From Hyphomicrobiales bacterium (GTDB lineage Bacteria; Pseudomonadota; Alphaproteobacteria; Rhizobiales; Rhizobiaceae): a stretch of DNA of 36,464 nt. The stretch spans positions 1 through 36,464 of the forward strand of contig JAALLE010000038.1 in assembly GCA_011087605.1 (NCBI GenBank), read 5' to 3'. The position numbers and the translations under genes were made by a program. Below, piece by piece: positions 13,505-30,976 of this stretch (its first letter is position 1; the number at the start of each line of letters is the position of its first letter). Below the pieces are notes generated by a model. The model did not search any database and had not been told where the DNA came from. It saw only the letters and a program-made list of their open reading frames with translations.

Positions 13505-15061
13505 TCAGTACTCGTCGTTTAAGGCGTCGACTGCAGGAATTTCACGTTCCCGACGGGCAATGTAGTCCTTCAATTGTTCGTCGATTGCTGCATCAAGCAT
13601 GGGTTCCTCATAGGCCGCCAGCAGTTCCTTTGCTCGACCCAAGGCCCGAGCCGTAATCTCCTGGCTGCCTTCCGCCATCCATTGTTCAATTGAATTGTTG
13701 TCAAACATCTCCGGCATAAAAAAAGCTTTTTCGAATTTTGCGCGAGTGTGATGGTGACCAAGATAATGTCCGCCCGGACCGATATCGCGAACTGCTGCAA
13801 GCGCCTCGTCGAAATCGTCCCACTGGACTCCTTCGACCATCCGATAGCCCATGGCACATTGCTCTGCGTCAACAATGAATTTGGCGATGGAACAATGCAT
13901 GCCGGCTTCGTTCCAGCCAGCGGAATGCCAAAGATAATTTGCCCCCGACATCAGCGTTGCCATCATCGTGGACGCGCTCTCATAACCAGCCTGTGCGTCA
14001 AAGTTCTTGGCACCACCCAGCGTATTGGAAGTGCGCCAGGGAATTTTGTAATACCGCGCCATTTGACCGATCATCATATTCATCAGGCTGATTTCCGGCG
14101 TGCCGGCCATCGGCGCCCCCGATTTCATTGAGACGGTCGACAGGTAGTGACCATAGATCGCGGGGCATCCTGTGCGAACCACCTGGGTATAAGCCAGTGC
14201 CGACAGGGCTTCAGCATTGAGTTGAGCAACCGCAGCGGCGGTTGAGGCCGGTGTATTGGCGCCACCCAACACGAATGGTGAGCACAAGACCGGTTGATTG
14301 CGTTTGCAGAAAGCACGCATTGCTCCGAGCATGGTTTCATCCCACACCAATGGCGAATTGCCGTTGCAATTGCCGGTCGATACGGGATGAGTTTCCATGA
14401 AGTCTTCGCCAAACAAAATGGCACACATCTCCATGACATCTTCAGCGTTTTTCGGGCTGGTGGTCATCCCCATGAAGGTTTTGTCGCTGTGCTTCATCGA
14501 AGAATAGGTGATCCGCAGGTGACGGTGAGCCACCACATGATCCATGGGTTCAACAATGTGATGGGCCGATGAATGCATGGCCGGAAGCATCTGGGCCAGT
14601 TTGTGAAAATTGGCCAGGTCATCGAGCGTCGGACCACGCCGTTTGTCTTCAAGATCGCGCAGGTAGGGAGCTCCCGTCATCGGTACAAAGATCGAATGAT
14701 CTCTGCCAAACGGCAGATTGTTTGCGGGATTTCTAGCGTGATAGGTGAAGCTTTCGGGGATTGTCTGGATGAGTTCCCGGATCAGATTTCGGTCCAGATG
14801 GATCCGATCATCATCGCGAATGTCAGCACCAGCCTTGCGCCAATCTTCAATGGCGATGGGGTCGCGAAAGATAACGCCGACATCTTCCAATATGGCCATG
14901 GAAGCCGCGTCAATTTTTTCGATTTGTTCCGCTGACATCGGCTCGACCAGCGGCAGATTGCGCTTGAGCGCGGGTAGCATTTGTGTGTCGAAAGCAGAAC
15001 GTAATTCGCGACGTGCTTCTCGCCCGCCCCGGCGCCCCCGAGTCGCGCCGCCGCCGCTCAA
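13505..15061 (-). CDS. MttB-superfamily (trimethylamine/betaine) methyltransferase, non-pyrrolysine
   Basis: A 518-residue member of the trimethylamine methyltransferase superfamily (COG5598). It has the basic N-terminal patch (RGRRGGREARRELR), the ILEDVGVIF motif and a long TIM-barrel body including SPFVLGGANTPAS and NTLGGAKNFDAQAGYES. Characterised non-pyrrolysine members (MtgB, MtpB, MtcB) move a methyl group from a quaternary amine such as glycine betaine, proline betaine or carnitine to a corrinoid protein. No amber codon interrupts the frame. It starts with TTG overlapping the aldehyde dehydrogenase stop (TTGA), which suggests translational coupling; the conserved basic N-terminus supports this start over the ATG at codon 29. 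No corrinoid protein or reactivase gene is visible here. Substrate unknown. Confidence 0.87.
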   Translation of the reverse strand: MSGGGATRGRRGGREARRELRSAFDTQMLPALKRNLPLVEPMSAEQIEKIDAASMAILEDVGVIFRDPIAIEDWRKAGADIRDDDRIHLDRNLIRELIQTIPESFTYHARNPANNLPFGRDHSIFVPMTGAPYLRDLEDKRRGPTLDDLANFHKLAQMLPAMHSSAHHIVEPMDHVVAHRHLRITYSSMKHSDKTFMGMTTSPKNAEDVMEMCAILFGEDFMETHPVSTGNCNGNSPLVWDETMLGAMRAFCKRNQPVLCSPFVLGGANTPASTAAAVAQLNAEALSALAYTQVVRTGCPAIYGHYLSTVSMKSGAPMAGTPEISLMNMMIGQMARYYKIPWRTSNTLGGAKNFDAQAGYESASTMMATLMSGANYLWHSAGWNEAGMHCSIAKFIVDAEQCAMGYRMVEGVQWDDFDEALAAVRDIGPGGHYLGHHHTRAKFEKAFFMPEMFDNNSIEQWMAEGSQEITARALGRAKELLAAYEEPMLDAAIDEQLKDYIARREREIPAVDALNDEY

Positions 15062-16548
15062 CTGACCTTGTCCTGGTTCGCCGGGTCGGACAAATCGACC
15101 CAGATGGTTTTCAGCTCCGTATATTGATCATGGGCATGGAGGCCGTTGTCCCGTCCGCCAAATCCCGACTGTTTATAGCCACCAAAGGGTGTGGAGATAT
15201 CTCCTTCACCATAACAATTCACGGTCACGGTGCCGGCACGCACCGCTCGGGCGGTGGTCAACGCGCGGCGGGTATTGGCGGTGAAAACGCTCGCAGCGAG
15301 GCCGTAGTCGGTGTCGTTTGCAATTTCGATGGCTTCATCAAGCGAGCCAACTTCGATGATCGACAATACAGGCCCGAATACTTCTTCACGGGCGAGCCTG
15401 TCATCGGCAGAATTATTGTAAATAGTAGGTTCTATATACGGACCATCCAGCTTGCCACCGTTCAACGCGCCGTCCTCCAGATATGACGCCACTTTCTTGC
15501 AATGATCTGTGTCTATCAGAGCGCCAAGATGGTTTGTCGGATCAAGTGGATCACCTGTACGCCAGTCGCGAATGCGCGCCTGGATAAGTTCGGTCAACTT
15601 GTCCCTGACATCTTTATGGACGATCAATCTTGAACAGGCTGAGCAATTTTCACCCATATTCCAGAACGCCGCGCTGACGATATGCCCGGCAACCAGATCG
15701 AGATTTTCAGCGTCGTCCAAGACGATGGCAGGGTTCTTGCCGCCGCATTCCAGCACCACTTTTTTCAAGTTTGAATCGGCGGCATAGCGCAGAAAACGTC
15801 GCCCCGTTTCCGTGGACCCGGTAAAGCTGACCATGTCGACATCGAGGTGGAGGCCAAGCGGTTCACCAACCGCAGGGCCATCACCCGGCAATACCTGTAA
15901 GACGCCACGAGGAATACCCGCTTCGGCGGCGAGTTCGGCAATTCTCAACGCTGTCAACGATGTTTGCTCTGCCGGTTTTACGATCACCGAGTTTCCGGCG
16001 GCGAGGGCAGGGCCGATTTTCCAGGCCAGCATGAGCAAGGGGAAATTCCACGGCAGGATTGCTGCGACAACACCAATTGGCTCCCTGACGATCATCGCCA
16101 TGGCATCTTCGCCAGCGGGTGCTGTCTGATCATATATTTTGTCGGCCGCTTCAGCATGCCATTTGATGGTGTGGATGGTTTCTGGAATGTCGATGGTTTC
16201 GCAGTCGCGAATTGGTTTTCCAGAATCGAGACTTTCCATCACCGCCAGTTCGCGGGCATTTCGGGTAATCAGCTTGCACAGGCGAATGAGCACATCCTTG
16301 CGCTCGCTTGGATGTAATCTTGACCAGTGTCCCTGATCAAATGCTTCGCGCGCCTTGCTGACGGCCAGATCAACATCTTCGGCATTGCAGGCAGAGATCT
16401 TGCAGAGTTCCTCTCCCGTTGCAGGATTTGCGGTGGCCAATTTGCCACCCCGACCGGGCTGATATTTGCCGTCAATGAATGCGGTTTTGGGGAAATCGAT
16501 CTGTGCGGCGATCCCTGCGTATTCTTCCCGGGTTAGCAATGCGGTCAT
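15058..16548 (-). CDS. NAD(P)-dependent aldehyde dehydrogenase (PuuC-like)
   Basis: A 496-residue enzyme of the usual ALDH length. Catalytic residues are in canonical places: Asn168 (PWNFP), Glu267 (motif LECGGKNP) and nucleophile Cys302 (GENCSACSR). FTGST and the C-terminal PFGGYKQSGFG motif are present. Overall it is closest to gamma-glutamyl-gamma-aminobutyraldehyde dehydrogenase (PuuC) and betaine-aldehyde types. It starts at an ATG overlapping the DapA-like gene (ATGA) with an AGGAG ribosome-binding site, and overlaps the methyltransferase gene at its end. It likely oxidises the aldehyde released by the FAD oxidase. The substrate, for example an aminobutyraldehyde or 2-oxoglutarate semialdehyde, cannot be fixed from sequence. 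Confidence 0.93.
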   Translation of the reverse strand: MTALLTREEYAGIAAQIDFPKTAFIDGKYQPGRGGKLATANPATGEELCKISACNAEDVDLAVSKAREAFDQGHWSRLHPSERKDVLIRLCKLITRNARELAVMESLDSGKPIRDCETIDIPETIHTIKWHAEAADKIYDQTAPAGEDAMAMIVREPIGVVAAILPWNFPLLMLAWKIGPALAAGNSVIVKPAEQTSLTALRIAELAAEAGIPRGVLQVLPGDGPAVGEPLGLHLDVDMVSFTGSTETGRRFLRYAADSNLKKVVLECGGKNPAIVLDDAENLDLVAGHIVSAAFWNMGENCSACSRLIVHKDVRDKLTELIQARIRDWRTGDPLDPTNHLGALIDTDHCKKVASYLEDGALNGGKLDGPYIEPTIYNNSADDRLAREEVFGPVLSIIEVGSLDEAIEIANDTDYGLAASVFTANTRRALTTARAVRAGTVTVNCYGEGDISTPFGGYKQSGFGGRDNGLHAHDQYTELKTIWVDLSDPANQDKVS

Positions 16549-17453
16549 GACTTTTCTCCTTCGATCAGAGCTATGGCTTTGTTCATGGTGCGGATAACTT
16601 CTGCCAATTCCCGCTTGTCGTCCTTGTTAAGCGGCTGCAGGGGACGTCGCGGAGGCCCGCAATCGATGCCGCGCATTGTTACGCCGTGTTTGATGCATTG
16701 AACGAACTTGCCGCCCTGTTCGAGCACGCGCATGAGTGGCAACATCGCTGACATGATCCGGCGTCCCTTGTTGAAATCGCCCTCCATGGCGCAGGTTCGA
16801 TAAAGAGCCAGATGTGCCTCGGGAGCAAAGTTTGACCCGGCGCAAACCCATGAGCGAGCGCCCCAGGCAAAAAATTCCAACGCCTGATCATCCATCCCAC
16901 AGGACAATTGAATATGAGGGTAATCCCGGGCCAGCATATGAAGGCGATTTGGATCACCTGAGGATTCCTTGACGGCACAAAAATTTGCACTGCGGCCCAA
17001 TCGATCGAGGGTTTCTTCGTCCATATTGACACTCATGCGGCCGGGATAATTGTAGAGCATCACAGGAAGATTTGCAGCGCGGTCGATGGCAAGTGCATGC
17101 AGGGCGATCTCCCGTCCTGTGGGATAAGCATAAGGTGGTGTGGTGACGAGAAGAGCATCAGCGCCAATGCGCTTTGCTTCGGTGGCGAAAGTGATGGCAT
17201 CTTCGGTGCGAATGGCGCCGGTGCCGATGATCAGGGGCAGACGCTTGCCTATGATTTGCTTGGCCAGCGCCATTAGATGAAAACGCTCTTCGACGCTTTG
17301 AGCATAATATTCGCCCGTCGTACCGGCGATGATCAGGCCATGAACGCCTGAGCCAATGAGGTCCTCAATGATCGCTTCAAAGGCTTCTTCATTGATCGAG
17401 TGATCATCATTGTGAGGCGTCACCACAGGGGTGTAAATTCCTTCAAATTGCAT
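16545..17453 (-). CDS. DapA-family Schiff-base lyase/deaminase
   Basis: A 302-residue TIM barrel of the dihydrodipicolinate synthase / N-acetylneuraminate lyase family. The pyruvate-binding loop GTTGE is at residues 44-48, the tyrosine motif YNYPGR begins at Tyr134, and the Schiff-base lysine is Lys162 (VKESSGD). I chose ATG 17453, which gives the normal N-terminus (MQFEGIYTPVVTP) and has a GGGAG site; a longer start at 17510 would intrude 68 bases into the regulator gene. With the chosen start it overlaps the regulator by 11 bases. The family spans aldolases, dehydratases and the hydroxyproline-pathway deaminase. With an oxidase and an ALDH beside it, a role like pyrroline-4-hydroxy-2-carboxylate deaminase is a possible guess; lysine synthesis is unlikely. 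Confidence 0.88.
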   Translation of the reverse strand: MQFEGIYTPVVTPHNDDHSINEEAFEAIIEDLIGSGVHGLIIAGTTGEYYAQSVEERFHLMALAKQIIGKRLPLIIGTGAIRTEDAITFATEAKRIGADALLVTTPPYAYPTGREIALHALAIDRAANLPVMLYNYPGRMSVNMDEETLDRLGRSANFCAVKESSGDPNRLHMLARDYPHIQLSCGMDDQALEFFAWGARSWVCAGSNFAPEAHLALYRTCAMEGDFNKGRRIMSAMLPLMRVLEQGGKFVQCIKHGVTMRGIDCGPPRRPLQPLNKDDKRELAEVIRTMNKAIALIEGEKS

Positions 17454-18150
17454 TCTGGTTCTCCCGGTGATCCTCGGCAAGTTCAAATGGCAGCGGGTCA
17501 GGACTGACAAACTGCTCCATTTGGTGGCGGGATAATTCCCAATGTTCGAGCGTCAGCTGTACCGCTTGCGAGGGCTCGTTTTTGGCAAACGCCTCTATCA
17601 TTTGATCATGCTGATCGGCGGCCTGCGCGATTCTATGTCGGTCCGATGGATTGTTGTTTTGGTAAAATACGCGGCCGATCCGAGTATGATCAATCAGCAA
17701 TCGGTCAAGACTGGGCATCAGATAGGGGGACTCGGCCATTTCACCGATTACCTGATGGAAACGATAATTGAGCATCGCAGTTTCCTGCACGTGGTCGGCC
17801 GCAATGGATTTGCGATATTGCTGTTGAACCGATTTCAGCGTGTCAATTTGAGCAGCAGTGGACCGCTCTGCCGCGAGACGGGCAATAGACGCGTAGATCA
17901 TGGGCGCCGCCTGAAAAAAATGACGCATGGTGGAAATATCCATCGAGGCGACCTTCGCCCCGCGGTTCTCCTGGGAAGATAAATATCCTTCTCCGCACAA
18001 ACGCTGAATAACCTCGCGCAAAGGCGTTCGCGAAATGCCAAATTCCTGCGACAAGGCTGTCTCATCCAACAATTGGCCGGGGACGATTTCCATCGACAAA
18101 ATCCGTCGCTTAAGTGCTGAAGCACAAGCAGACTTTGAGTTTGACTTCAT
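17443..18150 (-). CDS. GntR-family (FadR/FCD subfamily) transcriptional regulator
   Basis: A 235-residue regulator. The N-terminal winged helix spans residues about 10-70 (motifs ILSMEIVPGQLLDE, GISRTPLREVIQRL), and the rest is a helical FCD ligand-binding domain containing the NYRFHQVIGEM stretch. Members usually repress a catabolic operon and release DNA when they bind a carboxylate from the pathway. It is the first gene of the minus-strand operon, with an AGGAGG ribosome-binding site just upstream of the ATG. A 23-bp palindrome overlaps its promoter, so autoregulation together with the four downstream enzymes is very likely. Confidence 0.9.
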   Translation of the reverse strand: MKSNSKSACASALKRRILSMEIVPGQLLDETALSQEFGISRTPLREVIQRLCGEGYLSSQENRGAKVASMDISTMRHFFQAAPMIYASIARLAAERSTAAQIDTLKSVQQQYRKSIAADHVQETAMLNYRFHQVIGEMAESPYLMPSLDRLLIDHTRIGRVFYQNNNPSDRHRIAQAADQHDQMIEAFAKNEPSQAVQLTLEHWELSRHQMEQFVSPDPLPFELAEDHRENQNAI

Positions 18151-18323: not shown

Positions 18324-20015
18324 TCAGCCTTTGTCCAGGGTCAAAGCCTCATCTCGCAGTTCCCGTCGCAGTATCTTGCCAACATTGGTTCGCGGAAGAT
18401 CTTCGCGGAACTCGATGTATTTTGGTTTCTTGTAGCCGGTCAGGTTGTCGGCACAGAAGTTGGTCAGATCCTCTTCGGTCAGCGCATCGTCCTTCTTTAT
18501 GACAAAGAGCATAACAGCTTCGCCGGATTCATCGTCGGGCACGCCAACAGCGGCTGTTTCCAGAACACCTGGATGGTTGGCCGCAACATTTTCAATTTCA
18601 TTTGGATAGACGTTGAACCCGGATACAAGGATCATATCTTTTTTTCGGTCGACAATCTTCACATAGCCGCTTTCGTCCATAATTCCGACATCGCCGGATT
18701 TGAAGAAACCATCGTCGGTCATTACTTCGTCAGCGGCTTCAGGGCGCTGCCAGTAATTCGCCATGACCTGTGGTCCGCGAATGGCAATTTCTCCACGCTC
18801 GCCTTGGGGTACCTCTTTTTCGTCATCATCGAGAATTTTGATGTCAACGCTGGGCAGTGGCAGACCAATGGTTCCGGTAAACCGATCCGAATTTGTCGGA
18901 TTACACGTGACGCCGGAGGAGGTCTCTGAAAGCCCGTAGCCTTCACAGATGGGACAGCCAGTTACTTCCAGCCAGTGCTTGGCAGTGGCTTCCTGGATTG
19001 CCATGCCGCCACCCATGGATATTCGAAGTTGACTGAAATCAAGCTCGGCAAAATCCGGGCGATTGGCAAGTGCGTTAAACAACGTGTTGACCGCAGGAAA
19101 CAGGTGGAACTTGTATTTTCGGATTTCCTTGATAGTCGCATCAAGATCCCGCGGGTTCGGAATCAGCACAACCAACCCCCCGGCCCGCATGGTCAACATG
19201 CTGCAGGTGACAAAGGCAAAGACGTGGTAGAGGGGGAGTGCGCAAACCGAAATCATCTGCCCGCTGATTGGATTTTTGTCTATGGCTGGCTGCATCCATG
19301 CCTCAGACGCCAGCAAATTGCCGATAATGGTCTTGTGAAGCAGGGTGGCACCTTTTGAGACGCCTGTTGTGCCACCCGTATATTGGAGGACAGCCACATC
19401 GTCGGACGTGATTTCAGGCTTGTCCAATGTCATGGATGCCCCGATTGCCAGCGTATCCTTAAAGGGAGTTGTGCCTGAAAGAGAGTAACCTGGAACGCCT
19501 TTTTTGACGTGCCGGATAACGAAGTTCACGAGGCCGCCTTTTAGTCCTCCCAACATTTCTCCGATATTGGCGATGATCGTATGTTTAATTGGCGTCTTGT
19601 TGATCACCTGTTCCAGAGTTGCAGCAAAATTTTCCAATATGATGATTGCCGTGGAGCCGGAATCGTTTAGCTGATGCTCCAGTTCGCGCGGCGTGTAGAG
19701 CGGATTGACATTTACCGCGATCAGCCCGGCGCGTAAAATTCCGCCGATGGCAATTGGATATTGCAGCACGTTGGGCATCATCACCGCCACGCGGTCACCC
19801 TTTTTCAAACCGAGACTTTGCAGATAACAGGCCATCGCCATCGACTGACGATCAAGCTCGCCATATGTCATGCGCTTGTCCATGAATACATAGGCGTCGT
19901 CATTGGCGTATCTGGTGAAGCTGTCTTCCAGCAAATCAACGAGCGAATTGTATTGGGTGACATCAATTTCTGTGGGGACCCCTTCGGGATAGTGGCTTAA
20001 CCAAATTCGTTCCAT
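18324..20015 (-). CDS. fadD: Long-chain fatty-acid-CoA ligase
   Basis: A 563-residue adenylate-forming enzyme that matches the proteobacterial FadD layout from the N-terminus (IWLSHYPEGVPTEI) onward. The ATP-binding P-loop YTGGTTGVSKG is at residues 212-222, the EGYGLSETSSG motif follows, and the C-terminal VDRKKDMILVSGFNVYPNEI and PRTNVGKILRREL motifs are intact, including the adenylation lysine. It activates fatty acids to acyl-CoA at the inner membrane for beta-oxidation. It sits alone on the minus strand, divergent from the hydroxy-acid oxidase operon and upstream of the GntR operon. A DmdB-like role in activating methylmercaptopropionate was considered because of the DmdA-like gene nearby, but the sequence looks like ordinary FadD. 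Confidence 0.92.
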   Translation of the reverse strand: MERIWLSHYPEGVPTEIDVTQYNSLVDLLEDSFTRYANDDAYVFMDKRMTYGELDRQSMAMACYLQSLGLKKGDRVAVMMPNVLQYPIAIGGILRAGLIAVNVNPLYTPRELEHQLNDSGSTAIIILENFAATLEQVINKTPIKHTIIANIGEMLGGLKGGLVNFVIRHVKKGVPGYSLSGTTPFKDTLAIGASMTLDKPEITSDDVAVLQYTGGTTGVSKGATLLHKTIIGNLLASEAWMQPAIDKNPISGQMISVCALPLYHVFAFVTCSMLTMRAGGLVVLIPNPRDLDATIKEIRKYKFHLFPAVNTLFNALANRPDFAELDFSQLRISMGGGMAIQEATAKHWLEVTGCPICEGYGLSETSSGVTCNPTNSDRFTGTIGLPLPSVDIKILDDDEKEVPQGERGEIAIRGPQVMANYWQRPEAADEVMTDDGFFKSGDVGIMDESGYVKIVDRKKDMILVSGFNVYPNEIENVAANHPGVLETAAVGVPDDESGEAVMLFVIKKDDALTEEDLTNFCADNLTGYKKPKYIEFREDLPRTNVGKILRRELRDEALTLDKG

Positions 20016-20238: not shown

Positions 20239-21396
20239 GTGAGCAGTATATTTGGACCATCACCGATCCAGGATGCTGTCGAGGCCCGAGTGAAAGCCCG
20301 CAAGCGCTTGCCACGACTTGTATTTGACTTCATCGACGGCGCGACAGGGCAGGAAGTTGCAATGCAGAATAATTGCGTCGAACTAGATGCAATTCAACTG
20401 CAGCCGCGGGTTTTGGTTGACGTTGAGAACATCTCACCAGCGTGCAAATTGCTTGGCGACAATTATGGATTGCCCTTCGGGGTGGCGCCGATGGGCATGT
20501 GTAACCTGGCATGGCCGGGAGCCGACGCGGCGATTTCTGAGCAAGCGGCGAAACGTCGATTACCACATTGTGTATCAACTGCTGCATCTACAACGATGGA
20601 GAAATCCTATCAGCAGGCAAATTCTCAAGCCTGGTTTCAACTCTATGCTGGTACGGACACCGAGCAGAGTGAAGAAATGATCAGCCGGGCCGAAGCTGTG
20701 GGATATGAGTATTTGGTACTCACCGTTGATACTCCCCGTCTGTCCAGACGCAATCGGGATGTCCGCAACGGATTTCAGGTGCCGTTTCGGATTGGCCCGC
20801 GACAGTTTGTGGATTTTGCGCTGCATCCCCGGTGGGCGCTTTCGACCTTGTTGGGCGGCCCCCCCGGACCGATGAATTATCGCACTTCAAAATTGGGTAA
20901 GTCCTTTCAACGAAATGACAGTCGGGGCGGAATAGATTGGACATATCTGCAAGAACTGCGTCGGCGGTGGCGGGGCAAGTTGATTGTAAAGGGTGTCTCT
21001 TCAACCAAAGATGCCATAGAGGTCAAAGCGCTGGGAGTAGACGCCATTTATGTTTCCAACCATGGAGGGCGACAATTGGACAGTGCACCAGCGGCCATTT
21101 CAGTTTTGCCTGCCATTCGACAGGCGGTTGGCGAGGATTATCCGCTGATCTTTGATAGTGGAATCCGCAGCGGTGATGATATCGTGCGGGCTCTGGCGAT
21201 GGGCGCAGATTTTGTCATGTTGGGCAGACCGATCTTGTTCGCGCTTGGCGCCGGAGGTGCAGCTGGTCTCAACTCGTTTTTCAATCATCTGGAAGAAGAT
21301 GTTAAATCGGTCATGGCTCAAATAGGCGTCACCAATATTCACCAAATAAACTCAGCCGTGCTGGCAGAAATACAATCGGGAAACCTCAATGACTGA
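20239..21396 (+). CDS. FMN-dependent alpha-hydroxy-acid oxidase/dehydrogenase (LldD family)
   Basis: About 385 residues with the family features in order: RLPRLVFDFIDGATG near the N-terminus, the FMN-binding APMGM motif, STAAS, WFQLYAG, LTVDTP, the FMN lysine in LIVKGV, and the catalytic histidine in VSNHGGRQLD, then FDSGIRSGDD. These enzymes oxidise L-2-hydroxy acids such as lactate, glycolate or mandelate to 2-oxo acids, passing electrons to oxygen or quinone. I prefer the GTG at 20239, which gives a normal-length N-terminus; a TTG at 20212 adds nine residues. It overlaps the ThDP-enzyme gene by eight bases, so the 2-oxo acid product may feed that enzyme. Confidence 0.9.
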   Translation: MSSIFGPSPIQDAVEARVKARKRLPRLVFDFIDGATGQEVAMQNNCVELDAIQLQPRVLVDVENISPACKLLGDNYGLPFGVAPMGMCNLAWPGADAAISEQAAKRRLPHCVSTAASTTMEKSYQQANSQAWFQLYAGTDTEQSEEMISRAEAVGYEYLVLTVDTPRLSRRNRDVRNGFQVPFRIGPRQFVDFALHPRWALSTLLGGPPGPMNYRTSKLGKSFQRNDSRGGIDWTYLQELRRRWRGKLIVKGVSSTKDAIEVKALGVDAIYVSNHGGRQLDSAPAAISVLPAIRQAVGEDYPLIFDSGIRSGDDIVRALAMGADFVMLGRPILFALGAGGAAGLNSFFNHLEEDVKSVMAQIGVTNIHQINSAVLAEIQSGNLND

Positions 21397-23119
21397 TCCA
21401 AAACGCATCCGGGGAGGCAACCTTTTGGCGCGTGCCTTGCACGAAAAGGGGGTTGAACATGTGTTCACTCTGGCAGGAGGATTCTGCAACCCGGCACTTG
21501 AAGGTTTCATGGAATGCCAGCTGCCGGTGATTAATTGTCCCCACGAGCAAGTTGCTGGACATTTGGCTGATGGGCATGCGCGCATCACTCGAAAACCGAC
21601 TGTATGTTTGGTCGGGCCGGAAGGTTTCGCAAATGCGGTGCCGGCCATGCTTGAGGCCTGGGGAGAACGGTCACCGGTGATTTTTGTTACCGGGTCGAGC
21701 ACGCTGAAACGGCAAGGTTCAGGCGGCTTTAAGGAAATTGATGATGTGGCGGTAGCTGCCCCTTTGACCAAGTATTCAGTTCAAATTACCGATGGTGAGA
21801 GGATTGGAGAATTTGTTGATCGGGCATGGAAAATGGCAACAAGTGGCTATCCGGGCCCGGTTCATTTGAGCCTGCCTGTCGACATTATGTTTTCATCTTT
21901 CGAAGAAGATGCTGGCAGGCAGGAGCGCCCGTTTCAGCGTCGTGATTTGCCCAGGCCGCGCGCCTGGCCCGATCCAAGGGACCTGGCTCCGTTAATGGAA
22001 TTGATCAGCAATGCCGAGCGACCAATGCTGATTGGTGGACATGGCGTATGGTGGTCCAGCAACGAAAATGCGCTTGAGGCGGTCGGGCAGGAATTGAATA
22101 TTCCGGTTTTTAATGTGCCCTACCACCAAAAACTGCTAGGCGAAGATTGCGAAGCCTATATGGGGTTGGCTGACGTTCATCAGTACCCGCCATCGAAATT
22201 TGCTCTGGAGCAATGCGACGTCTGCATCATGGTTGGCGGTCGTCTCGACAATCAGATGAATTTTGGCAACCCTCCGCTGTTTCCCAAGAGTTGTACCCTG
22301 ATCTGCGTCAATGGCAGTCATGAAGAACTGGACCACAACCGGGCGGCCGATCATGTATTGCTGAGTGATCCGGGAGCTTTTTTTGATCAGATGTTGGAAC
22401 TCCCACCTTTTCAACCGGACTGGATAAAACTGAACCGGACAAAGCGGGCAGAATGGGTTGAAAAAACACTGTCAGATTTGAAGGCCGAAACTGCTTCTAC
22501 CGATTGGGTGGGCAATCAAATTCACCCACTTGAACTGGCGCTGGATGTAAATGCTGCCATGGGAAAAAACGACTGGCTGGTATTTGACGGAGGCAATACT
22601 CATTTCTGGTCGGAAATTGCTGTCAATGTCGCCGGATGGCAGGGGCAACAGCTTGCCGGTGTGATGCATCCGGGTTCCTATAGTCTGCTGGGCGTTGGTG
22701 TATCATTCGCCTTGTCAGCCAAAAATACCCATCCCGAAAGCACAGTAGTGTTGATCAGTGGTGATGGAGCTTTTCTGTCGGGTGGTTTGAGTATCGAAAC
22801 GGCATTTCAGGAAAAAACCCCGATTGTCGTTGTAATTGATAACAATGGTGGGCTTGATTGCATATCTCAACAACAGGAGCGTTTGTTTGAAAACGGCACT
22901 CATTTCGCCACCGACTTCCGCGATATTCCATTTCATACAATGTTTGAGGGTCTGGGAGGGTATGGAGAATTGGTGGAGACACGCGATGAACTGGAACCAG
23001 CCCTGCAACGGGCCATCGCCAGCGGTAAACCTGCCTGCCTGAATGTCAAAACCAAAGGGGTGATCAGTCCGATTGTTCTGGCAACCACCAGCAAAAGAGA
23101 CAAGGCATCCATCGAGTAG
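21389..23119 (+). CDS. ThDP-dependent acetolactate synthase-like enzyme (carboligase, decarboxylase or 2-hydroxyacyl-CoA lyase type)
   Basis: A 576-residue protein with the three-domain ThDP-enzyme layout. The catalytic glutamate is Glu53 (CPHEQVAGHLADGHAR), the GGFKEIDDVAVAAPLTKYS segment matches the AFQE...TK region of acetolactate synthases and 2-hydroxyacyl-CoA lyases, and the C-terminal ThDP/Mg motif runs from GDGAFL to DNNGG. The family includes acetolactate synthase, glyoxylate carboligase, sulfoacetaldehyde acetyltransferase and oxalyl-CoA decarboxylase; I cannot place this protein in one of them. No ALS small subunit is nearby, so branched-chain synthesis is unlikely. It overlaps the hydroxy-acid oxidase gene and is three bases from the HIUase-like gene. 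It probably cleaves, decarboxylates or condenses the 2-oxo acid made by the oxidase. Confidence 0.85.
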   Translation: MTDPKRIRGGNLLARALHEKGVEHVFTLAGGFCNPALEGFMECQLPVINCPHEQVAGHLADGHARITRKPTVCLVGPEGFANAVPAMLEAWGERSPVIFVTGSSTLKRQGSGGFKEIDDVAVAAPLTKYSVQITDGERIGEFVDRAWKMATSGYPGPVHLSLPVDIMFSSFEEDAGRQERPFQRRDLPRPRAWPDPRDLAPLMELISNAERPMLIGGHGVWWSSNENALEAVGQELNIPVFNVPYHQKLLGEDCEAYMGLADVHQYPPSKFALEQCDVCIMVGGRLDNQMNFGNPPLFPKSCTLICVNGSHEELDHNRAADHVLLSDPGAFFDQMLELPPFQPDWIKLNRTKRAEWVEKTLSDLKAETASTDWVGNQIHPLELALDVNAAMGKNDWLVFDGGNTHFWSEIAVNVAGWQGQQLAGVMHPGSYSLLGVGVSFALSAKNTHPESTVVLISGDGAFLSGGLSIETAFQEKTPIVVVIDNNGGLDCISQQQERLFENGTHFATDFRDIPFHTMFEGLGGYGELVETRDELEPALQRAIASGKPACLNVKTKGVISPIVLATTSKRDKASIE

Positions 23120-23122
23120 ACA

Positions 23123-23479
23123 ATGGCAACCATCTCAACCCATACGCTCAATTCCGTTGACGGCACTCATGCAGGCGGCATCGCCCTGTCGGTTATAGCC
23201 ATAGCGGCGGATCAAAGCCGCAAAACTCTCTTGACCGGCGAAACCGACTCGGGTGGGCGTTTCGTGCAGGAAGTTGCTGCTGCGGATATTGATATTGGGG
23301 CTGATTATGAATTGGTCTTGCTCGTGGCACCATATTTTGAAAGCTGCCACCAAGGGGATGCAAAAGGTCGTTCGCTGAAAGAAGTGGTCGTCCGTTTTCA
23401 AATGCCGGATCCGGAAGGCCGCTATCACATGCCCTTCATGCTGGCGCCCAATTCATATAGCGTTTGGTCGTCGAGATGA
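23123..23479 (+). CDS. Divergent 5-hydroxyisourate hydrolase / transthyretin-like protein
   Basis: A 118-residue protein of the usual HIUase length. The N-terminal THTLNSVDG motif with His7, the arginine of the TxxxGR motif (Arg46) and the His102 motif (RYHMPFMLAP) match the catalytic His, Arg and His of HIUase. The signature C-terminus YRGS, which supplies the last active-site residues, is replaced by YSVWSSR. HIUase normally opens 5-hydroxyisourate in urate degradation, but no urate oxidase, OHCU decarboxylase or allantoinase gene is in the window. The gene is locked in an operon with a ThDP enzyme and a DmdA-like demethylase. A hydrolase or binding protein with a changed substrate is therefore possible. 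Family assignment fairly sure, function unknown. Confidence 0.78.
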   Translation: MATISTHTLNSVDGTHAGGIALSVIAIAADQSRKTLLTGETDSGGRFVQEVAAADIDIGADYELVLLVAPYFESCHQGDAKGRSLKEVVVRFQMPDPEGRYHMPFMLAPNSYSVWSSR

Positions 23480-24603
23480 CCGTCAGTAAATCCGGCAGTG
23501 GGCTAAACATGTCGCGCCGTATCCGACGCAGTCCATACACTGATCGGATTGAGCAGCATGGGGTCAGGGGTTTCAGCGTGGTCAACCACATGTTGTTGCC
23601 CAAAGCCTTTGCGCCAACTGTTGAAGAAGATTACTGGCATCTGCGCGAGCATGTACAACTCTGGGATGTTTCAACCCAGCGGCAGGTCGAAATCAGAGGT
23701 CCGGATGCTGCGCGTTTGGTGCAGTGGATGAGCCCGCGGGACTTGCGTGGTGCAAAGGTAGGTCAATGTCTCTACGTGCCTTTGGTGGATGAGTGGGGTG
23801 GCATGATCAATGACCCGGTTCTGCTCAAACTTGCCGATGATCATTTCTGGTTGTCGATTGCAGATTCTGATGTTCTGCTGTGGGCAAAAGGCCTGGCCCT
23901 GGGGGCAAAATTCGATGTTGAGATTGACGAACCCGATGTATCGCCGCTGGCGGTTCAGGGTCCCAAAGCTGAAGACCTTCTTGCCAAGCTGTTTGGAGAG
24001 AATATTCGCAGTATTGGCTTCTTCAAATTTGCCTGGATTGAATTTCAGGGTACCCGGCAACTGATGGCACGATCGGGATTTTCCCGGCAGGGTGGCTTTG
24101 AAATATACCTGCGGGGTGGACACCTTGGCGGCGCGTTGTGGGATACGATTTGGGAAGCCGGACGGGAGTTTAACATAACGCCCGGGTGTCCAAATCTGAT
24201 TGAGCGCATTGAAGGTGGGTTGCTGTCATATGGGAACGAGTTTACTCGTGCCGACACGCCGCTCGAATGTGGTCTTAAGGATTATTGTTCATTATCCAGT
24301 GACCTGGAATATATCGGCAGACCGGCACTGGAGAAACTGCAGGCACAGGGGATAAGGCGCGATATGCGCGGAGTGTTGTTTGACGGTCCACCGTTGTCCG
24401 GAGTTGGCATTCCTTTGCCGGTTAAATCAGGAGATCTCCATGTCGGGCAAATAACTTCCGGCATCTGGTCGCCGCGGTTGCGCAGGAACGTAGGTCTGTC
24501 GATGATCGACCGCGATTTTTGGACCCCCGGCCAAAAGGTTGAAGTGATGTTGTCACCAGACGATGAGCGGGCGGGCGAAGTCAGCTTGCTGCCGTTTTCC
24601 TAG
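23476..24603 (+). CDS. DmdA-like GcvT-family demethylase (DMSP demethylase family)
   Basis: A 375-residue protein of the aminomethyltransferase fold. Its motifs resemble dimethylsulfoniopropionate demethylase DmdA throughout: SRRIRRSPYTDRIE, VNHMLLP, EEDYWHLREHVQLWDV, RQVEI, NDPVLLKL, IADSDVLLWAKGLA, EPDVSPLAVQGPKA, ARSGFSRQGGFEIY and PNLIERIEGGLLSYGNE. DmdA transfers a methyl group from DMSP to tetrahydrofolate, giving methylmercaptopropionate. Related clades act on other or unknown substrates, so the DmdA name is tentative. ATG 23476 overlaps the HIUase-like stop (ATGA). It is the last gene of the operon. The usual partner genes dmdB, dmdC and dmdD are not adjacent, apart from the ordinary-looking fadD. 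Confidence 0.85.
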   Translation: MTVSKSGSGLNMSRRIRRSPYTDRIEQHGVRGFSVVNHMLLPKAFAPTVEEDYWHLREHVQLWDVSTQRQVEIRGPDAARLVQWMSPRDLRGAKVGQCLYVPLVDEWGGMINDPVLLKLADDHFWLSIADSDVLLWAKGLALGAKFDVEIDEPDVSPLAVQGPKAEDLLAKLFGENIRSIGFFKFAWIEFQGTRQLMARSGFSRQGGFEIYLRGGHLGGALWDTIWEAGREFNITPGCPNLIERIEGGLLSYGNEFTRADTPLECGLKDYCSLSSDLEYIGRPALEKLQAQGIRRDMRGVLFDGPPLSGVGIPLPVKSGDLHVGQITSGIWSPRLRRNVGLSMIDRDFWTPGQKVEVMLSPDDERAGEVSLLPFS

Positions 24604-24621: not shown

Positions 24622-25521
24622 TCAGTCGGTTTGTTGATTGATCCGTTCTGACACAAGTTGCGCAAAGGCTCCGGCCTCGCGGGACAATGTATCCAGGCCT
24701 CTGGTGATGATTGCGACATGGTAAGTCATCGCCTGGAGCAAAGGGCGTGAAACCACGCCGCCCATCCGAACAGACAGCGACGCAGTGAATGGATCGACAA
24801 TGGCAAGTGCGCCTGTTGATCCTACCAATGCGGCGGCCATCGGCATATTGGTAGCCGAAATACTCGACTTTTTCTGGAGTTGTTGCGATAGAGATCGATC
24901 AATGCCGGTCATTTCGTCGGGATAAATGTCTCCGAATGTAACGAATTTTTCCGATTGACTCAGCTCCTGCAGATCGACCGGGCCGTTTTCCTTTGCGCGA
25001 TGATGACTATCGGGCAACAAACAGACATAGGGCACCGTGGTTTGGTGCAATATCTCGACACCATCGTAAGGTGGTTCGCGCCCGACAATACCAATGTCCA
25101 GTTGTTGCATGCGCACAGCATCGATAATGGCGGGGGTATTTCGAGTGGAAAGCATCAACCGCATATCCGGTCGCTCTGACAGCATGTGGGCAACGGCATC
25201 TGGCAAAATTGACTGAGAAAGGCTGGGAATAACCCCAACTGAAACGGCACCATCTGCCGTTGTTTTGATGGCTTCTGCGAGTTCGCGCAGACGGCCAACG
25301 CCAACGAACATGGATTCCACCGCTTTGTAAAAACGCCTGGCCTCAACCGTTGCGGTCAAACCCCGGCCAGCGCGAAGGAACAGAGGAAAACCAACGGACC
25401 TTTCCAGATCGGCAATCAATCGACTGACGCTTGGCTGGGAAACATGGAGTAGTTCCGCTGCAGCCGTTATGGAACCTGTTTCAATGGTGGCACGGAAAGC
25501 CTCCAACTGCCTCACATTCAT
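24622..25521 (-). CDS. LysR-family transcriptional regulator
   Basis: A 299-residue LTTR with an N-terminal helix-turn-helix at residues about 18-37 (SITAAAELLHVSQPSVSRLI), a linker, and a periplasmic-binding-protein-like effector domain. ATG 25521 is preferred: it has an AGGAG site nine bases upstream and gives the standard MNVRQLEAFRATIETGS N-terminus, whereas an upstream ATG at 25551 lies in the promoter. It is divergent from the PanE-family gene, the normal arrangement for an LTTR and its target, and convergent with the DmdA-like gene. A LysR box sits in the 137-bp divergent region. Confidence 0.9.
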   Translation of the reverse strand: MNVRQLEAFRATIETGSITAAAELLHVSQPSVSRLIADLERSVGFPLFLRAGRGLTATVEARRFYKAVESMFVGVGRLRELAEAIKTTADGAVSVGVIPSLSQSILPDAVAHMLSERPDMRLMLSTRNTPAIIDAVRMQQLDIGIVGREPPYDGVEILHQTTVPYVCLLPDSHHRAKENGPVDLQELSQSEKFVTFGDIYPDEMTGIDRSLSQQLQKKSSISATNMPMAAALVGSTGALAIVDPFTASLSVRMGGVVSRPLLQAMTYHVAIITRGLDTLSREAGAFAQLVSERINQQTD

Positions 25522-25545
25522 AACAAAATACTCCTGAATTCGGGC

Positions 25546-25568
25546 ATTCATTCAATTTATGGATGAAT
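25546..25568. promoter_or_regulatory. LysR box (ATTCAT-N11-ATGAAT)
   Basis: ATTCAT (25546-25551) and ATGAAT (25563-25568) are perfect inverted arms separated by exactly 11 bp, the canonical T-N11-A layout of LTTR recognition sites. A GAATTC occurs on each side (25536-25541 and 25565-25570). The box lies between the divergent LysR and PanE-family genes and overlaps a minus-strand promoter. Confidence 0.75.
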
Positions 25569-25658: not shown

Positions 25659-26594
25659 ATGAAAGTTACCATTGTGGGTGCCGGTGCCATGGGATCGGTC
25701 TACGCCGCGCTGTTTGCCGACACCTCAACTAATGGACAAGAAAACGAAGTTTGGGCCATCGATGTGTGGGAACAACATGTGGCGGCCATCAATGATGGTG
25801 GCTTGCGCGTTGAGGGTGCCAGTGGCGATCGCACTGTAACAACGGTTCGAGCCAGCAGCGATGTGGCGGATGCAGGAGAAAGCGACCTGTTCATCATTGC
25901 CACAAAGGCCTCCGGAGTCGGTGCAGCAGCCAGGTCGATTGCACCCTATCTGTCACCCAATTCGCTGGTTCTGACCATTCAAAATGGGCTCGGAGCTGGA
26001 GAGCGAATTGCTGAATTCATGCCAGTGGAGAATGTCTTGTTAGGCGTCGCGGAAGGGTTCGGCGCTTCGATTAAAGGGCCGGGACATGCTCACCACAATG
26101 CGATGAACCTGATTCGCATCGGCGAAATGAACGGTGGCCTGACCCCGCGTCTCAAGATGATTGAAAAGCTCTGGCAGGGTGCTGGTTTCAAGGCCAAAGC
26201 CTTTGGTGATATCCAACAGCTGATCTGGGAAAAATATCTCTGCAACTCAACCTATTCAGCGCCTTGCACGGCCTTTAACTGCACAATGGGAGAATTGCAG
26301 GCGTCGCCGGAGAAATGGGCGATTGCGGTGGGGTGTGCCCTGGAAGTGTATCAGCTGGGCAAGGCGAAAGGCATCAATTTCAGCTTTTCTGATCCCATTG
26401 CCTATGTGCGCGAATTTGGTGCCCGCATGCCCGATGCCCGCCCGTCAATGTTGCTGGATAACCTTGCTGAACGAAAGTCGGAAATCGATGCGATCAACGG
26501 CATGGCTCCCGTACTGGGTGAAGAGTTGGGCATCGCAACGCCCTATAACCAAACACTGTCGGCTGTCGTCAGAGATCGCGAATCGAAGTTTTAG
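25659..26594 (+). CDS. Ketopantoate reductase family (PanE/ApbA) 2-oxo acid reductase
   Basis: A 311-residue protein with an N-terminal NADP-binding motif GAGAMG at residues 7-12, the TKAS and IQNGLG motifs, and the PanE helical C-terminal domain with the catalytic lysine in EKYLCNSTYSA. The family reduces 2-dehydropantoate to pantoate, but many paralogues in catabolic loci reduce other branched 2-oxo acids. Its position divergent from a LysR gene and beside the hydroxy-acid oxidase/ThDP operon suggests a paralogue that interconverts a 2-oxo acid and its hydroxy acid rather than housekeeping pantothenate synthesis. That is inference. A GAAGG site lies about ten bases upstream of the ATG. Confidence 0.83.
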   Translation: MKVTIVGAGAMGSVYAALFADTSTNGQENEVWAIDVWEQHVAAINDGGLRVEGASGDRTVTTVRASSDVADAGESDLFIIATKASGVGAAARSIAPYLSPNSLVLTIQNGLGAGERIAEFMPVENVLLGVAEGFGASIKGPGHAHHNAMNLIRIGEMNGGLTPRLKMIEKLWQGAGFKAKAFGDIQQLIWEKYLCNSTYSAPCTAFNCTMGELQASPEKWAIAVGCALEVYQLGKAKGINFSFSDPIAYVREFGARMPDARPSMLLDNLAERKSEIDAINGMAPVLGEELGIATPYNQTLSAVVRDRESKF

Positions 26595-26622: not shown

Positions 26623-27648
26623 TTATGGGGCAGAGGTACTTTGACGAATAATCAGTCTGACTGGTAATGTCTTGACCTGAATCGTGTCGCCAAATCCGCC
26701 ATCCGTAACTCCCTTCAACAACAGTTCAGCAACTGTTTGTCCCAATTCGAATCGAGGCTGCCAGATGGTGGTCAGCGCCGGAATATACCGTTTGGCTATG
26801 TCGATGTCGTCATAGCCAATTACCGATAATTGATCCGGGACCCTGATGCCGGACTGATGCAATTCAGAAATCAGACCGAAAGCAATTTCGTCATTGGCAC
26901 AAAAAATTGCGCTTGGCCTGTCTTCCATCTTCATCCATTTTCGGGCGACGCTTGCGCCCGATTCAAGGGTGAAGTCACCTGCAAAAAACCAATCTTCGCG
27001 AACCGGCACCCCGCGATCTTTCAAGGCTCTTTTTGTGCTTGCCTTTCGAACCTGGGACAACACATTTTCATCGGGGCCATTGATATAGCCAATATTTGAA
27101 TGTCCCAGTGACGCCAGGTGCTCAATCGCCAGCAATGCGCCTTGTTCGTTATTGGCCCGCACGGATGGGTAGTGGCCATTCTGCAGCCACTCGCAACCAA
27201 ATACGATTGGAAGATTTTCCGCCGCCATTCCAGGCGAATTCAAAATTGATGGGGGCAGGGAACCATCAAGCGAAATAATGCCGTCGGCGCGCGAATGGTG
27301 GAGATAGTCAAGAATGAATTCATCACCAGACCCGGAATGCTTTGTGTCCACCATCAGGGTGCTCAAACCCCGGCTCGACAAAGTAGATTCAATACCCGCA
27401 AGGATCTGCGAGAAAAACGGGTTGCCCAAATTGGGGACCAAAAGAACGATTGCACCAGTACTCCGACGACGAAGATTTCGCGCTGCCAGATTGATCCGGT
27501 ACCCGGTTTCAGCGGCAGCTGCCAGCACCGCTTCGCGGGTTTGCTTGGCAACAGTTTCCGGCTTGCTTAAAGCTCGACTGACCGTGGCTGTCGAGACGCC
27601 CGCAACCCGCGCAACATCAGTAATTTTCGGTGCGGCTTCTTGTTCCAT
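26623..27648 (-). CDS. LacI-family transcriptional repressor
   Basis: A 341-residue regulator with the LacI helix-turn-helix at residues about 9-33 (ITDVARVAGVSTATVSRAL), a hinge helix (AARNLRRRSTG) and a sugar-binding periplasmic-fold effector domain (VPNLGNPFFSQI, SVIGYDDIDIAKRYIPALTT). It is divergent from the sugar-binding-protein gene, and the 234-bp region between them contains a perfect TGTAATCGATTACA palindrome, the form expected for a LacI operator. It most likely represses the transport and xyloside-degradation operon until a sugar inducer binds. Confidence 0.93.
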   Translation of the reverse strand: MEQEAAPKITDVARVAGVSTATVSRALSKPETVAKQTREAVLAAAAETGYRINLAARNLRRRSTGAIVLLVPNLGNPFFSQILAGIESTLSSRGLSTLMVDTKHSGSGDEFILDYLHHSRADGIISLDGSLPPSILNSPGMAAENLPIVFGCEWLQNGHYPSVRANNEQGALLAIEHLASLGHSNIGYINGPDENVLSQVRKASTKRALKDRGVPVREDWFFAGDFTLESGASVARKWMKMEDRPSAIFCANDEIAFGLISELHQSGIRVPDQLSVIGYDDIDIAKRYIPALTTIWQPRFELGQTVAELLLKGVTDGGFGDTIQVKTLPVRLIIRQSTSAP

Positions 27649-27732
27649 CTGCTGAAAAACTTCATCTTTTTAGTGCTTTGCACAGAGCCAAGAAAGGGAC
27701 TTGACAGTTTCAACGGCAACGGTCACGTTACA

Positions 27733-27746
27733 TGTAATCGATTACA
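27733..27746. promoter_or_regulatory. LacI-type operator O1
   Basis: TGTAATCGATTACA is a perfect 14-bp palindrome with the central CG step typical of LacI-family operators. It lies in the divergent lacI / binding-protein region, about 85 bp from the lacI start and 137 bp from the binding-protein start. Downstream, on the minus strand, a TATAAT hexamer is present (plus-strand ATTATA, 27753-27758). Confidence 0.82.
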
Positions 27747-27788
27747 AATGCAATTATACGTCCGCGAGATGGATGATTCGGCTTAAAT

Positions 27789-27799
27789 TATAATCGATT
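27789..27799 (+). promoter_or_regulatory. Candidate -10 with overlapping second operator core
   Basis: A perfect TATAAT (27789-27794) overlaps AATCGATT (27792-27799), the same 8-bp core found in the O1 palindrome, centred 56 bp away. This could be the binding-protein promoter with a secondary LacI site. No good -35 lies at 16-18 bp upstream, so the promoter call is tentative. Confidence 0.45.
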
Positions 27800-27882
27800 T
27801 AGATAGCTGGGAGGCTACCAAAAGTAACTTTGTTGAACGTCGGTCGAGACTTGGTCGGGACCGCGCTTTGGGAGAATAAAAT

Positions 27883-29115
27883 ATGAAACTTTTTAAAACC
27901 TTGTTGGGTTGCACGACAGCTATGGCAATGTCCACGGCAGCCTTTGCAACAGATCTGGAAGTCACACATTGGTGGACATCCGGTGGTGAAGCAGCAGCTG
28001 TGGCGGAATTCGCCAAAGCGTTTAACGAGGGTGGTGACAAATGGGTTGACGGTGCGATTGCCGGATCCGGTGGTGTTGCTCGTCCGATCATTATCAGCCG
28101 TATCATCGGTGGTGATCCCATGGGAGCTACTCAGCTAAACCATGGTCGTCAGGCCGAAGAACTGGTTGAAGCAGGTCTGATGCTGGATCTGACAGATGTT
28201 GCTGATGCCGAAGGCTGGAAAAACCTGGTTAACCCGGTGCGTCTGCTGGACAGCTGCACACTGGACGGCAAGGTTTATTGCGTGCCGGTCAACATTCACT
28301 CTCCGCAATGGATCTGGCTGAGCCATGCCGCTTATGAAAAAGCCGGCGTTGCTGTTCCTTCCAATTGGGACGAATTTGTTGCATCCGCGCCTAAGTTAAA
28401 AGCAGCAGGCATTGTGCCGCTAGCTATGGGCCAACAGCCCTGGCAGACGCAGTTGGCGTTTGACACTTTGATGGTCGCTGTTGGTGGTCAGGATCTGTTT
28501 GTCAAAATTCTGAACGGCAAAGATGCGGACGCTGCAGGCAGTGCTGAAGCTGGAAAAGTGTTTGAAGCTTATGCGAATGCGCGTGCGTTGTCTGACGGAT
28601 CAAATGTCAATGACTGGAACCAGGCCACTAACATGGTGATTACCGCCAAAGCCGGTGGTCAGATCATGGGCGACTGGGCTCAAGGTGAATTCCAGGTAGC
28701 CAAACAGGTTGCTGGCAAGGACTATACCTGCTTGCCCGGTCTGGGTGTAAACGAAATTATCGCCACTGGTGGTGATGCATTTTACTTCCCGAAAAGCGAT
28801 GATGCTGAAGTCACTGCCGCTCAAAAGCGCATGGCGTCACAGATGATTTCAAAATCGGTTCAGGTTGCGTTTAATCTGAAAAAAGGCTCTCTGCCAATTC
28901 GTGGTGACGTCGATCTGACTGCCGCAAATGACTGCATGAAAAAGGGCCTCAAGATCCTTGCTGCTGGCAACATCCTTCCTGATGGAGTGAATGCATTTTC
29001 GGCCGATACTCAAGGTCAGATTCAGGACTTGATGGTTGAATTCTGGAACGACAAGTCGATTACGCCGGCTGATGCCCAGAAGCGCTATGTCGCAATCATT
29101 GCATCTGCTGACTAA
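27883..29115 (+). CDS. Sugar ABC transporter substrate-binding protein (CUT1 type)
   Basis: A 410-residue exported protein: signal peptide over residues 1-22 (basic start MKLFK, hydrophobic core, AFA cleavage), then a family 1 solute-binding fold starting LEVTHWWTSGGEA. Aromatic residues such as HSPQWIW are typical of carbohydrate stacking sites. It captures a sugar in the periplasm for the two permeases and ATPase encoded next. A GGGAG site precedes the ATG. A stem-loop separates it from the first permease gene, as is common where the binding protein is made in excess. The linked beta-xylosidase suggests a xylo-oligosaccharide or xyloside substrate, but this is not provable here. Confidence 0.93.
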   Translation: MKLFKTLLGCTTAMAMSTAAFATDLEVTHWWTSGGEAAAVAEFAKAFNEGGDKWVDGAIAGSGGVARPIIISRIIGGDPMGATQLNHGRQAEELVEAGLMLDLTDVADAEGWKNLVNPVRLLDSCTLDGKVYCVPVNIHSPQWIWLSHAAYEKAGVAVPSNWDEFVASAPKLKAAGIVPLAMGQQPWQTQLAFDTLMVAVGGQDLFVKILNGKDADAAGSAEAGKVFEAYANARALSDGSNVNDWNQATNMVITAKAGGQIMGDWAQGEFQVAKQVAGKDYTCLPGLGVNEIIATGGDAFYFPKSDDAEVTAAQKRMASQMISKSVQVAFNLKKGSLPIRGDVDLTAANDCMKKGLKILAAGNILPDGVNAFSADTQGQIQDLMVEFWNDKSITPADAQKRYVAIIASAD

Positions 29116-29132
29116 GTCAATCTTTTGACTGG

Positions 29133-29165
29133 AGCCGACCCGCCGTTTTAGACGGGTCGGCTTTT
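29133..29165 (+). terminator. Strong stem-loop with T-run between binding-protein and permease genes
   Basis: AGCCGACCCG (29133-29142) pairs perfectly with CGGGTCGGCT (29153-29162) around a 10-base loop, followed by a short T-run. It looks like a rho-independent terminator or attenuator. Because the permease, ATPase and enzyme genes follow within 30 bp, it more likely acts as a partial terminator or 3' mRNA-stabilising hairpin that raises the binding protein to permease ratio. A smaller hairpin (AGTCAA / TTGACT) precedes it at 29115-29130. Confidence 0.82.
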
Positions 29166-30974: not shown

Positions 30975-30976
30975 TT

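Follow-up and report, generated by a model that had tools for sequence, protein, structure and literature searches.

What is broken down by four genes that set a relative of the dimethylsulfoniopropionate (DMSP) demethylase DmdA beside three proteins of other families? The question is raised by the stretch analysed here, a 36,464-nucleotide contig (JAALLE010000038.1, hereafter the window; C131 in our numbering) from the 4.19 Mb genome of a Hyphomicrobiales bacterium. At positions 20239-24603 it carries a predicted operon, whose genes we call OX, TH, HIU and DMD. On balance we lean towards a widespread, so far undescribed folate-linked pathway of mostly marine alphaproteobacteria that breaks down some methylated compound, not DMSP. 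Its components would be a DmdA clade that has taken on a new function, a new hydrolase resembling hydroxyisourate hydrolase (HIUase) and an unnamed thiamine diphosphate (ThDP) enzyme. More tentatively, in what is close to an even call, we read the operon as an undescribed folate-linked catabolism of a methylated onium compound whose carbon skeleton either starts out as a 2-hydroxy acid or is turned into one.

The four genes lie head to tail on the forward strand and are tightly packed, as judged from the window's open reading frames. OX (20239..21396; Pfam FMN_dh, 413 bits) encodes a flavin mononucleotide (FMN)-dependent 2-hydroxy-acid oxidase or dehydrogenase with a GTG start, a TTG upstream at 20212 being a possible alternative, and overlaps TH by 8 bases. 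TH (21389..23119) encodes a ThDP-dependent enzyme of an unnamed subfamily with the three Pfam domains TPP_enzyme_N, M and C. A gap of 3 bases separates it from HIU (23123..23479), whose product is HIUase/transthyretin-like (PF00576 Transthyretin/HIUase, 59 bits) and whose end shares an ATGA with the start of DMD (23476..24603; protein P0004), a GcvT-fold, DmdA-like folate-dependent demethylase (Pfam GCV_T and GCV_T_C). The first-pass annotation had described genes that overlap or lie three bases apart and had assigned them to these families; both descriptions hold. Comparison with the nearest relative, locus L092, gives dN of 0.03-0.12 and dS of 0.69-0.96 across the four genes, so that all four are under purifying selection.

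The arrangement is conserved well beyond this genome. We surveyed the loci of 50 species, the window included, in which TH scored at least 600 bits; nine of the 24 TH carriers in family f142 were fetched for this survey, and L032 and L033, which by their length are the same contigs as L092 and L093, were not counted separately. A script found OX-TH-HIU-DMD complete and in order in 43 of the 50 loci, spanning six families; L093 is among the 43 despite an HIU that looks broken in the assembly. Three more loci are compatible with the full order: the contig of L076 begins at TH, TH of L091 is read as two pieces and its contig ends inside DMD, and the HIU of L140 is present and was missed by the script. 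Gene order is thus kept across genomes and the genes behave as a unit, as had been proposed. Moreover, when loci are compared in pairs, the distances for one protein track those for the other three (r 0.91-0.95; 42 loci, L093 omitted), a level reached by none of 999 permutations, which fits joint inheritance. Median identity is highest for TH (73%) and lowest for HIU (41%).

The distribution of TH orthologues (at least 69% identity) is patchy across the class and frequent in a few families. They occur in 6 of 385 genomes sampled from the class, 2 of 398 from the phylum and 6 of 61 relatives, and in 9 of 198 genomes of family f24, 5 of 14 of f81, 22 of 61 of f110 (23 with any match) and 24 of 40 of f142; the samples overlap, and the counts take in the window's own genome, or that at the centre of a sample, wherever it was drawn. 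G443 and G451, of the same genus as the window's genome, also carry TH loci. We take f110 to be the family of SAR116 strain IMCC1322, which our genome G213 presumably is. With TH this frequent in f142, a family of small genomes, and in f110, presumably that of SAR116, the pathway may matter in plankton; the carriers belong to several alphaproteobacterial groups, most of them probably marine. Plasmid records held no TH orthologue (no match at E 1e-80; at E 1e-30 all 304 records were below 60% identity), and the operon DNA matched only short pieces in seven of them.

DMD and its TH-linked counterparts form a clade of their own. We built a tree from 95 rows, DmdA-like and GcvT-like, after dropping DMD rows shorter than 330 residues; all 43 TH-linked DMDs fall into one clade (100/99) nested within a 73-row DmdA group (100/100). 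The 29 other DmdA rows outside the clade are weakly held as a set (87/73) and include some long branches; one row, L216, is unplaced. The first-pass annotation had allowed for a demethylase lying inside functional DmdA and acting on DMSP alone, and as far as the tree can speak the separate clade argues against that. We note that L231, L233, L237 and L239 (its second copy) form a distinct clade of DmdA-like paralogues, perhaps of the SAR11_1265 type discussed in an excerpt of PMC3160333.

Two otherwise constant residues are replaced in this clade. Position 36 is Tyr in all 52 non-operon homologues, which extend from closely related DmdAs to distant GcvT-like rows and include nine near-copies from f142, and Val in all 43 operon DMDs. 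Position 255 is Asp in the same 52 and has become Glu in 42 of the 43 operon DMDs, the window's among them. A narrower comparison with 27 DmdAs, omitting L216 (which the 52 include), likewise gives Tyr36 and Asp255 in every row. Lys43 and Gln195 are fixed in the 43 operon DMDs, and Gln195 is found in one of the 27 DmdAs as well. We also tried 'W171', taken from a part of PMC7487153, as a marker of DMSP use; mapped by our own offset to alignment position 202, it is Tyr in 41 of 43 operon DMDs and in 10 of the 27 compared DmdAs, presumed roseobacter rows among them, and so does not discriminate. The substrate of DMD probably differs from DMSP.

OX carries a full set of catalytic-type residues and has informative sisters. 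Y136, D164, R171, K251, H275 and R278 are present without exception in the 44 operon OXs; we take these to be of the catalytic type, with roles as in glycolate and lactate oxidase. Against the NCBIfam models, among them L-lactate dehydrogenase LldD, L-lactate oxidase and MftD, OX scores below every cut-off. Its nearest relatives in the plasmid collection are roseobacter genes (48-51% identity), and in the four such loci fetched (L250-L253) the OX gene directly follows the sulfopyruvate decarboxylase genes comD-comE, with hisD-, SDR- and ADH-type genes and a TRAP transporter around them. The 44 operon OXs group with the four comDE-linked ones (100/100), and six others fall outside; by themselves the operon OXs group at only 89/66. 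M85, R225, R229 and L344 are common to both kinds and absent from the six. Of these six, which are more distant, two have another ThDP enzyme nearby, and in L254, among the other four, ThDP-type genes are about 3-5 kb away. That sister OXs follow sulfopyruvate decarboxylase genes supports the logic of OX followed by TH. The roseobacter OX-comDE clusters presumably serve dihydroxypropanesulfonate (DHPS), and their OXs would oxidise sulfolactate; the part of PMC11131964 at hand names other enzymes for that oxidation.

TH is a tightly conserved enzyme without a named subfamily. As many as 239 of its 576 residues are invariant in 49 orthologues, including E53, G458-D459-G460 and N485-N486, which we take to be the catalytic Glu and the ThDP motif (GDG...NN). 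No cut-off was reached among the 25 NCBIfam matches listed of 51, and the best solved relatives (oxalyl-CoA decarboxylase/2-hydroxyacyl-CoA lyase and benzaldehyde lyase/formolase) score no more than 206 bits; the AlphaFold model has a mean pLDDT of 53.7. Glyoxylate carboligase, which lacks the catalytic Glu, is not favoured as an identity because TH keeps this residue and because that enzyme ranks low among its matches. Genomes of f110 also hold two TH paralogues (36-38% identity; L097 and L098), both accompanied by genes for a GMC-type oxidoreductase and for a small protein (of the Dabb family by Pfam in L097).

HIU is probably enzymatic, but its substrate would not be hydroxyisourate. We aligned 50 TH-linked HIUs (L093 omitted) with 29 other HIUase matches. 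His7, Arg46 and His102, presumably the HIUase catalytic residues, are kept in all 50, and the C-terminal YRGS, which 27 of the 29 other matches show (two rows are misaligned), is W-x-S in all 50; it is this combination of kept catalytic-type residues and replaced tail that suggests an altered substrate. Position 16 is His in the 50 TH-linked proteins and Pro in 27 of the 29 others, and HIU scores 59.7 bits, below the TIGR02962 cut-off of 87.45. Its AlphaFold model (mean pLDDT 65.2, tail below 50) best matches transthyretin/HIUase folds. A purine or caffeine pathway, with HIUase acting as in urate breakdown, is not favoured because HIU lacks YRGS and because the identified neighbours include no urate gene. 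Genome G000 has two other HIUase matches elsewhere.

How might these four proteins work together? We infer the substrate, the order of the steps, the reaction of HIU and the placement of the distinctive DMD residues relative to the substrate. DMD, as a relative of DmdA, would pass a methyl group from an onium centre (sulfonium or quaternary ammonium) to tetrahydrofolate. OX, whose family is assigned, would convert a 2-hydroxy acid into a 2-oxo acid, and TH would decarboxylate or cleave this to an aldehyde, much as sulfopyruvate decarboxylase does in the OX-sister clusters. HIU, in the weakest step, may hydrolyse an intermediate, whether cyclic, lactam-like or hemiaminal-like, that TH either produces or receives. 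In some lineages MttB, PanE, aldehyde dehydrogenase and dipeptide-type or TRAP transporters may import the compound and finish its demethylation and oxidation. A similar logic had been put forward in the first-pass annotation: its 2-hydroxy-acid oxidation followed by ThDP-dependent cleavage gains support from the comDE-linked sisters, and for its hydrolysis of a cyclic or imidate intermediate by HIU, the kept catalytic residues show compatibility and no more. Our searches of the open-licence PubMed Central (PMC) literature turned up no description of the operon, nor does the portion seen of PMC12366255 contain anything on it. The gene combination, the DMD clade with its replaced residues and the HIU variant appear to be new; the parts belong to known families.

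The neighbourhoods point to onium compounds and leave sulfur and nitrogen undecided between. We compared 51 operon loci (22 from f110) with 26 other DmdA loci, counting genes whose centres lay within 6.5 kb in the former and 5 kb in the latter and keeping loci cut by contig ends. Absent from all 26 other DmdA loci, and present near the operon, are LysR regulators (25 loci, four families), family-5 (dipeptide-type) binding proteins (20 loci: f110 12, f142 7, f24 1), MttB-family genes (17 loci: f110 15, f24 2), S51 peptidases (16 loci, f110 only) and TRAP transporters (nine loci, four families). Aldehyde dehydrogenase genes are near 11 operon loci (f1 3, f142 8) and one other DmdA locus. Upstream of TH in L044 there is an asparaginase-family gene, with a 96% identical gene in L145. 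An excerpt of PMC12478193 reports that MttB-family proteins rise in an aerobic marine bacterium growing on nitrogenous osmolytes.

The MttB genes bring in a narrower form of the onium reading, in which a quaternary ammonium compound akin to glycine betaine or carnitine is degraded and OX, TH and HIU act on a nitrogen-containing 2-hydroxy acid derived from it. We regard this as a possibility of some weight, if an unlikely one. It would account for several contexts: on one side of TH-HIU-DMD in L141 lie carnitine 3-dehydrogenase and a beta-keto acid cleavage enzyme, and on the other folD, formate-tetrahydrofolate ligase and a gene with a weak GcvT-type match; a homocysteine-methyltransferase family gene and a second GcvT-like gene adjoin the operon in all nine fetched f142 loci; and a choline-dehydrogenase-like GMC gene is near it in f142 and in L143. 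However, within the counting radius MttB is confined to f110 and f24 and GMC to f142 and f24, and L139 has a Cys/Met pyridoxal phosphate (PLP)-family gene of the methionine gamma-lyase/cystathionine type after DMD, which points to sulfur.

A second candidate is DMSP itself: DMD would be a DMSP demethylase, its clade one among the DmdAs, OX, TH and HIU would serve related or unrelated acids, and the operon would be a variant DMSP cluster. The window's DMD scores 549.6 bits against NCBIfam PRK12486 'dimethylsulfoniopropionate demethylase' (cut-off 410 bits), and the operon DMDs pass in 23 of 23 searched genomes that have one, so that annotation would name them all DmdA. Many residues are invariant in operon DMDs and other DmdAs alike. 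In G213, our presumed IMCC1322, only the operon copy exceeds the cut-off, and that SAR116 strain is given as a dmdA carrier in the available part of PMC5015088. Nevertheless, we consider the DMSP explanation distinctly unlikely. Residues 36 and 255, constant in every other homologue compared, are replaced; nine of the 23 genomes (G451, G413, G161, G1070, G888, G941, G1021, G787 and G857) also hold a DmdA outside the clade; and neighbours of the DmdB/C type, which we looked for as signs of the DMSP pathway, are seldom close, with FadD near four of 51 operon loci, all in the window's own family (6 of 26 other DmdA loci), and acyl-CoA dehydrogenase near one (2 of 26).

Breakdown of a sulfonium 2-hydroxy acid, for instance 4-dimethylsulfonio-2-hydroxybutyrate (DMSHB), would be another narrower form of the onium reading, and is a little harder still to credit. 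In this scheme DMD would yield 4-methylthio-2-hydroxybutyrate, OX its 2-oxo acid and TH methional. The steps would fit the chemistry of the three enzymes, the change from Tyr to Val at position 36 could make room for a longer substrate, and the PLP-family gene of L139 would find a place. DMSHB is found in algae according to the part of PMC5395565 at hand, which gives no degradation step for it; the scheme, moreover, leaves HIU, MttB and the dipeptide transporter without a role. Least probable of all is one-carbon salvage instead of demethylation, with TH releasing a one-carbon unit that DMD would load onto tetrahydrofolate in the manner of GcvT: the kind of enzyme found among TH's best solved relatives and the TH paralogue of L098, which adjoins a DMD paralogue just above the cut-off (415.7 against 410 bits), speak for it, but TH is distant from those relatives and reaches none of the listed cut-offs, and DMD is much closer to DmdA than to GcvT.

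Several observations weigh against our favoured reading, a single pathway for an onium compound. In L141, OX is not in place beside TH-HIU-DMD, and the genome has a 42% identical relative elsewhere. Three loci of one genus of f81 (L044, L144 and L145) have TH-HIU only, and L147 of the same genus, under the score limit and uncounted, has a TH fragment and HIU without OX or DMD. In three of these four genomes the OX relatives are only 36-38% identical, and the fourth, G366, has none at E 1e-40. TH-HIU is therefore the firmest pair, as it persists where OX and DMD are absent, and the four genes do not always make one pathway. Shared species history remains in the distance correlation. The context genes are lineage-bound, as the MttB and S51 counts show, with f110 alone supplying 22 of 51 loci, and the scheme does not explain the S51 peptidase, the dipeptide transporter or the asparaginase-like gene. 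Lys43 of DMD is not specific to the clade, being shared by the nine remote GcvT-like rows of f142. Finally, the Arg pair R225/R229 of OX would suit a second anionic group, not a cation, at the OX step; DMD Lys43 would likewise go with a further anionic group on the substrate, and together they would be at odds with simple candidates such as DMSHB.

The window holds further genes that may be accessory. Directly downstream are a LysR-type regulator found by family search (24622..25551, reverse strand) and a PanE/ApbA-family 2-oxo-acid reductase (25659..26594, forward strand), which the first-pass annotation had suggested might handle the same 2-oxo acid. PanE homologues lie close to the operon in four of 51 loci, and their presence in a second family (L136 and L137) lends that suggestion some support. 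Upstream, on the reverse strand, are a divergent FadD-type acyl-CoA ligase (18324..20015), an aldehyde dehydrogenase (15058..16548) and an MttB-family methyltransferase (13505..15061), the last beyond the counting radius. The aldehyde dehydrogenase and MttB genes belong to a reverse-strand stretch at 12162-18150 with FAD oxidoreductase (DAO), DapA-like and GntR genes, likely another locus for methylated amines. Elsewhere, 177-10970 (forward strand) is a single open frame of 3597 residues, and 26623-35676, with a LacI regulator, a sugar-type ABC transporter, weak inositol-enzyme matches and a GH43 glycosidase, is apparently a sugar locus. Rfam gave no match in the window at gathering score.

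What would this mean for dmdA, a gene used in surveys as the marker of DMSP demethylation? If DMD does act on something other than DMSP, part of the surveyed dmdA, perhaps in SAR116 above all, would belong to the operon clade. Among eight f110 genomes searched with the DmdA family, the operon copy alone exceeds the cut-off in six; in G413 both kinds do so, and in G109 just the non-operon kind. The literature on this group, as far as the excerpts go, places dmdA in only one SAR116 subgroup (PMC8547437) or across SAR116 except one subclade (PMC12262181). We propose that some of these 'dmdA' reports, perhaps in SAR116, may concern the operon clade. A clade that passes the DmdA cut-off, with two conserved residues replaced and another context, could inflate dmdA counts and mask what becomes of some other methylated metabolite. 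For culture work, the operon offers a defined gene set.

Each part of the operon has a known counterpart from which it departs. DMD shares with the SAR11 DmdA of structure 3tfh the GcvT fold, the folate-binding domain, a nearly full-length match (386 bits; L238, one of the 29 other DmdA rows, scores 664) and a score over the cut-off, but it differs in belonging to a separate clade, identical in the tree to the TH-linked set, in Val36/Glu255, in the fixed Lys43 and Gln195 and in its neighbours. HIU has the PF00576 domain and the catalytic-type His7, Arg46 and His102 of 5-hydroxyisourate hydrolase (UraH/PucM); its W-x-S tail, His16 and low TIGR02962 score set it apart. TH is a ThDP enzyme that matches 2-hydroxyacyl-CoA lyase, oxalyl-CoA decarboxylase and benzaldehyde lyase over most of its length, yet at a low score and in a tight subfamily of its own.

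At the level of whole systems, two comparisons stand out. Like the MtgBCD system by which aerobic marine bacteria demethylate glycine betaine, as presented in the part of PMC12478193 at hand, operon loci can include an MttB-family (pfam06253) methyltransferase and would transfer one-carbon units from an onium compound; MtgBCD is cobalamin-dependent, whereas the demethylase that the operon itself encodes has the GcvT fold. The roseobacter OX-comDE clusters resemble the operon in an FMN oxidase about 51% identical to OX, encoded beside a ThDP-dependent 2-oxo-acid decarboxylase. There, however, the decarboxylase is the two-subunit ComDE and not TH, the substrate is presumably sulfolactate, and the comDE stretches shown have no annotated HIU or DMD.

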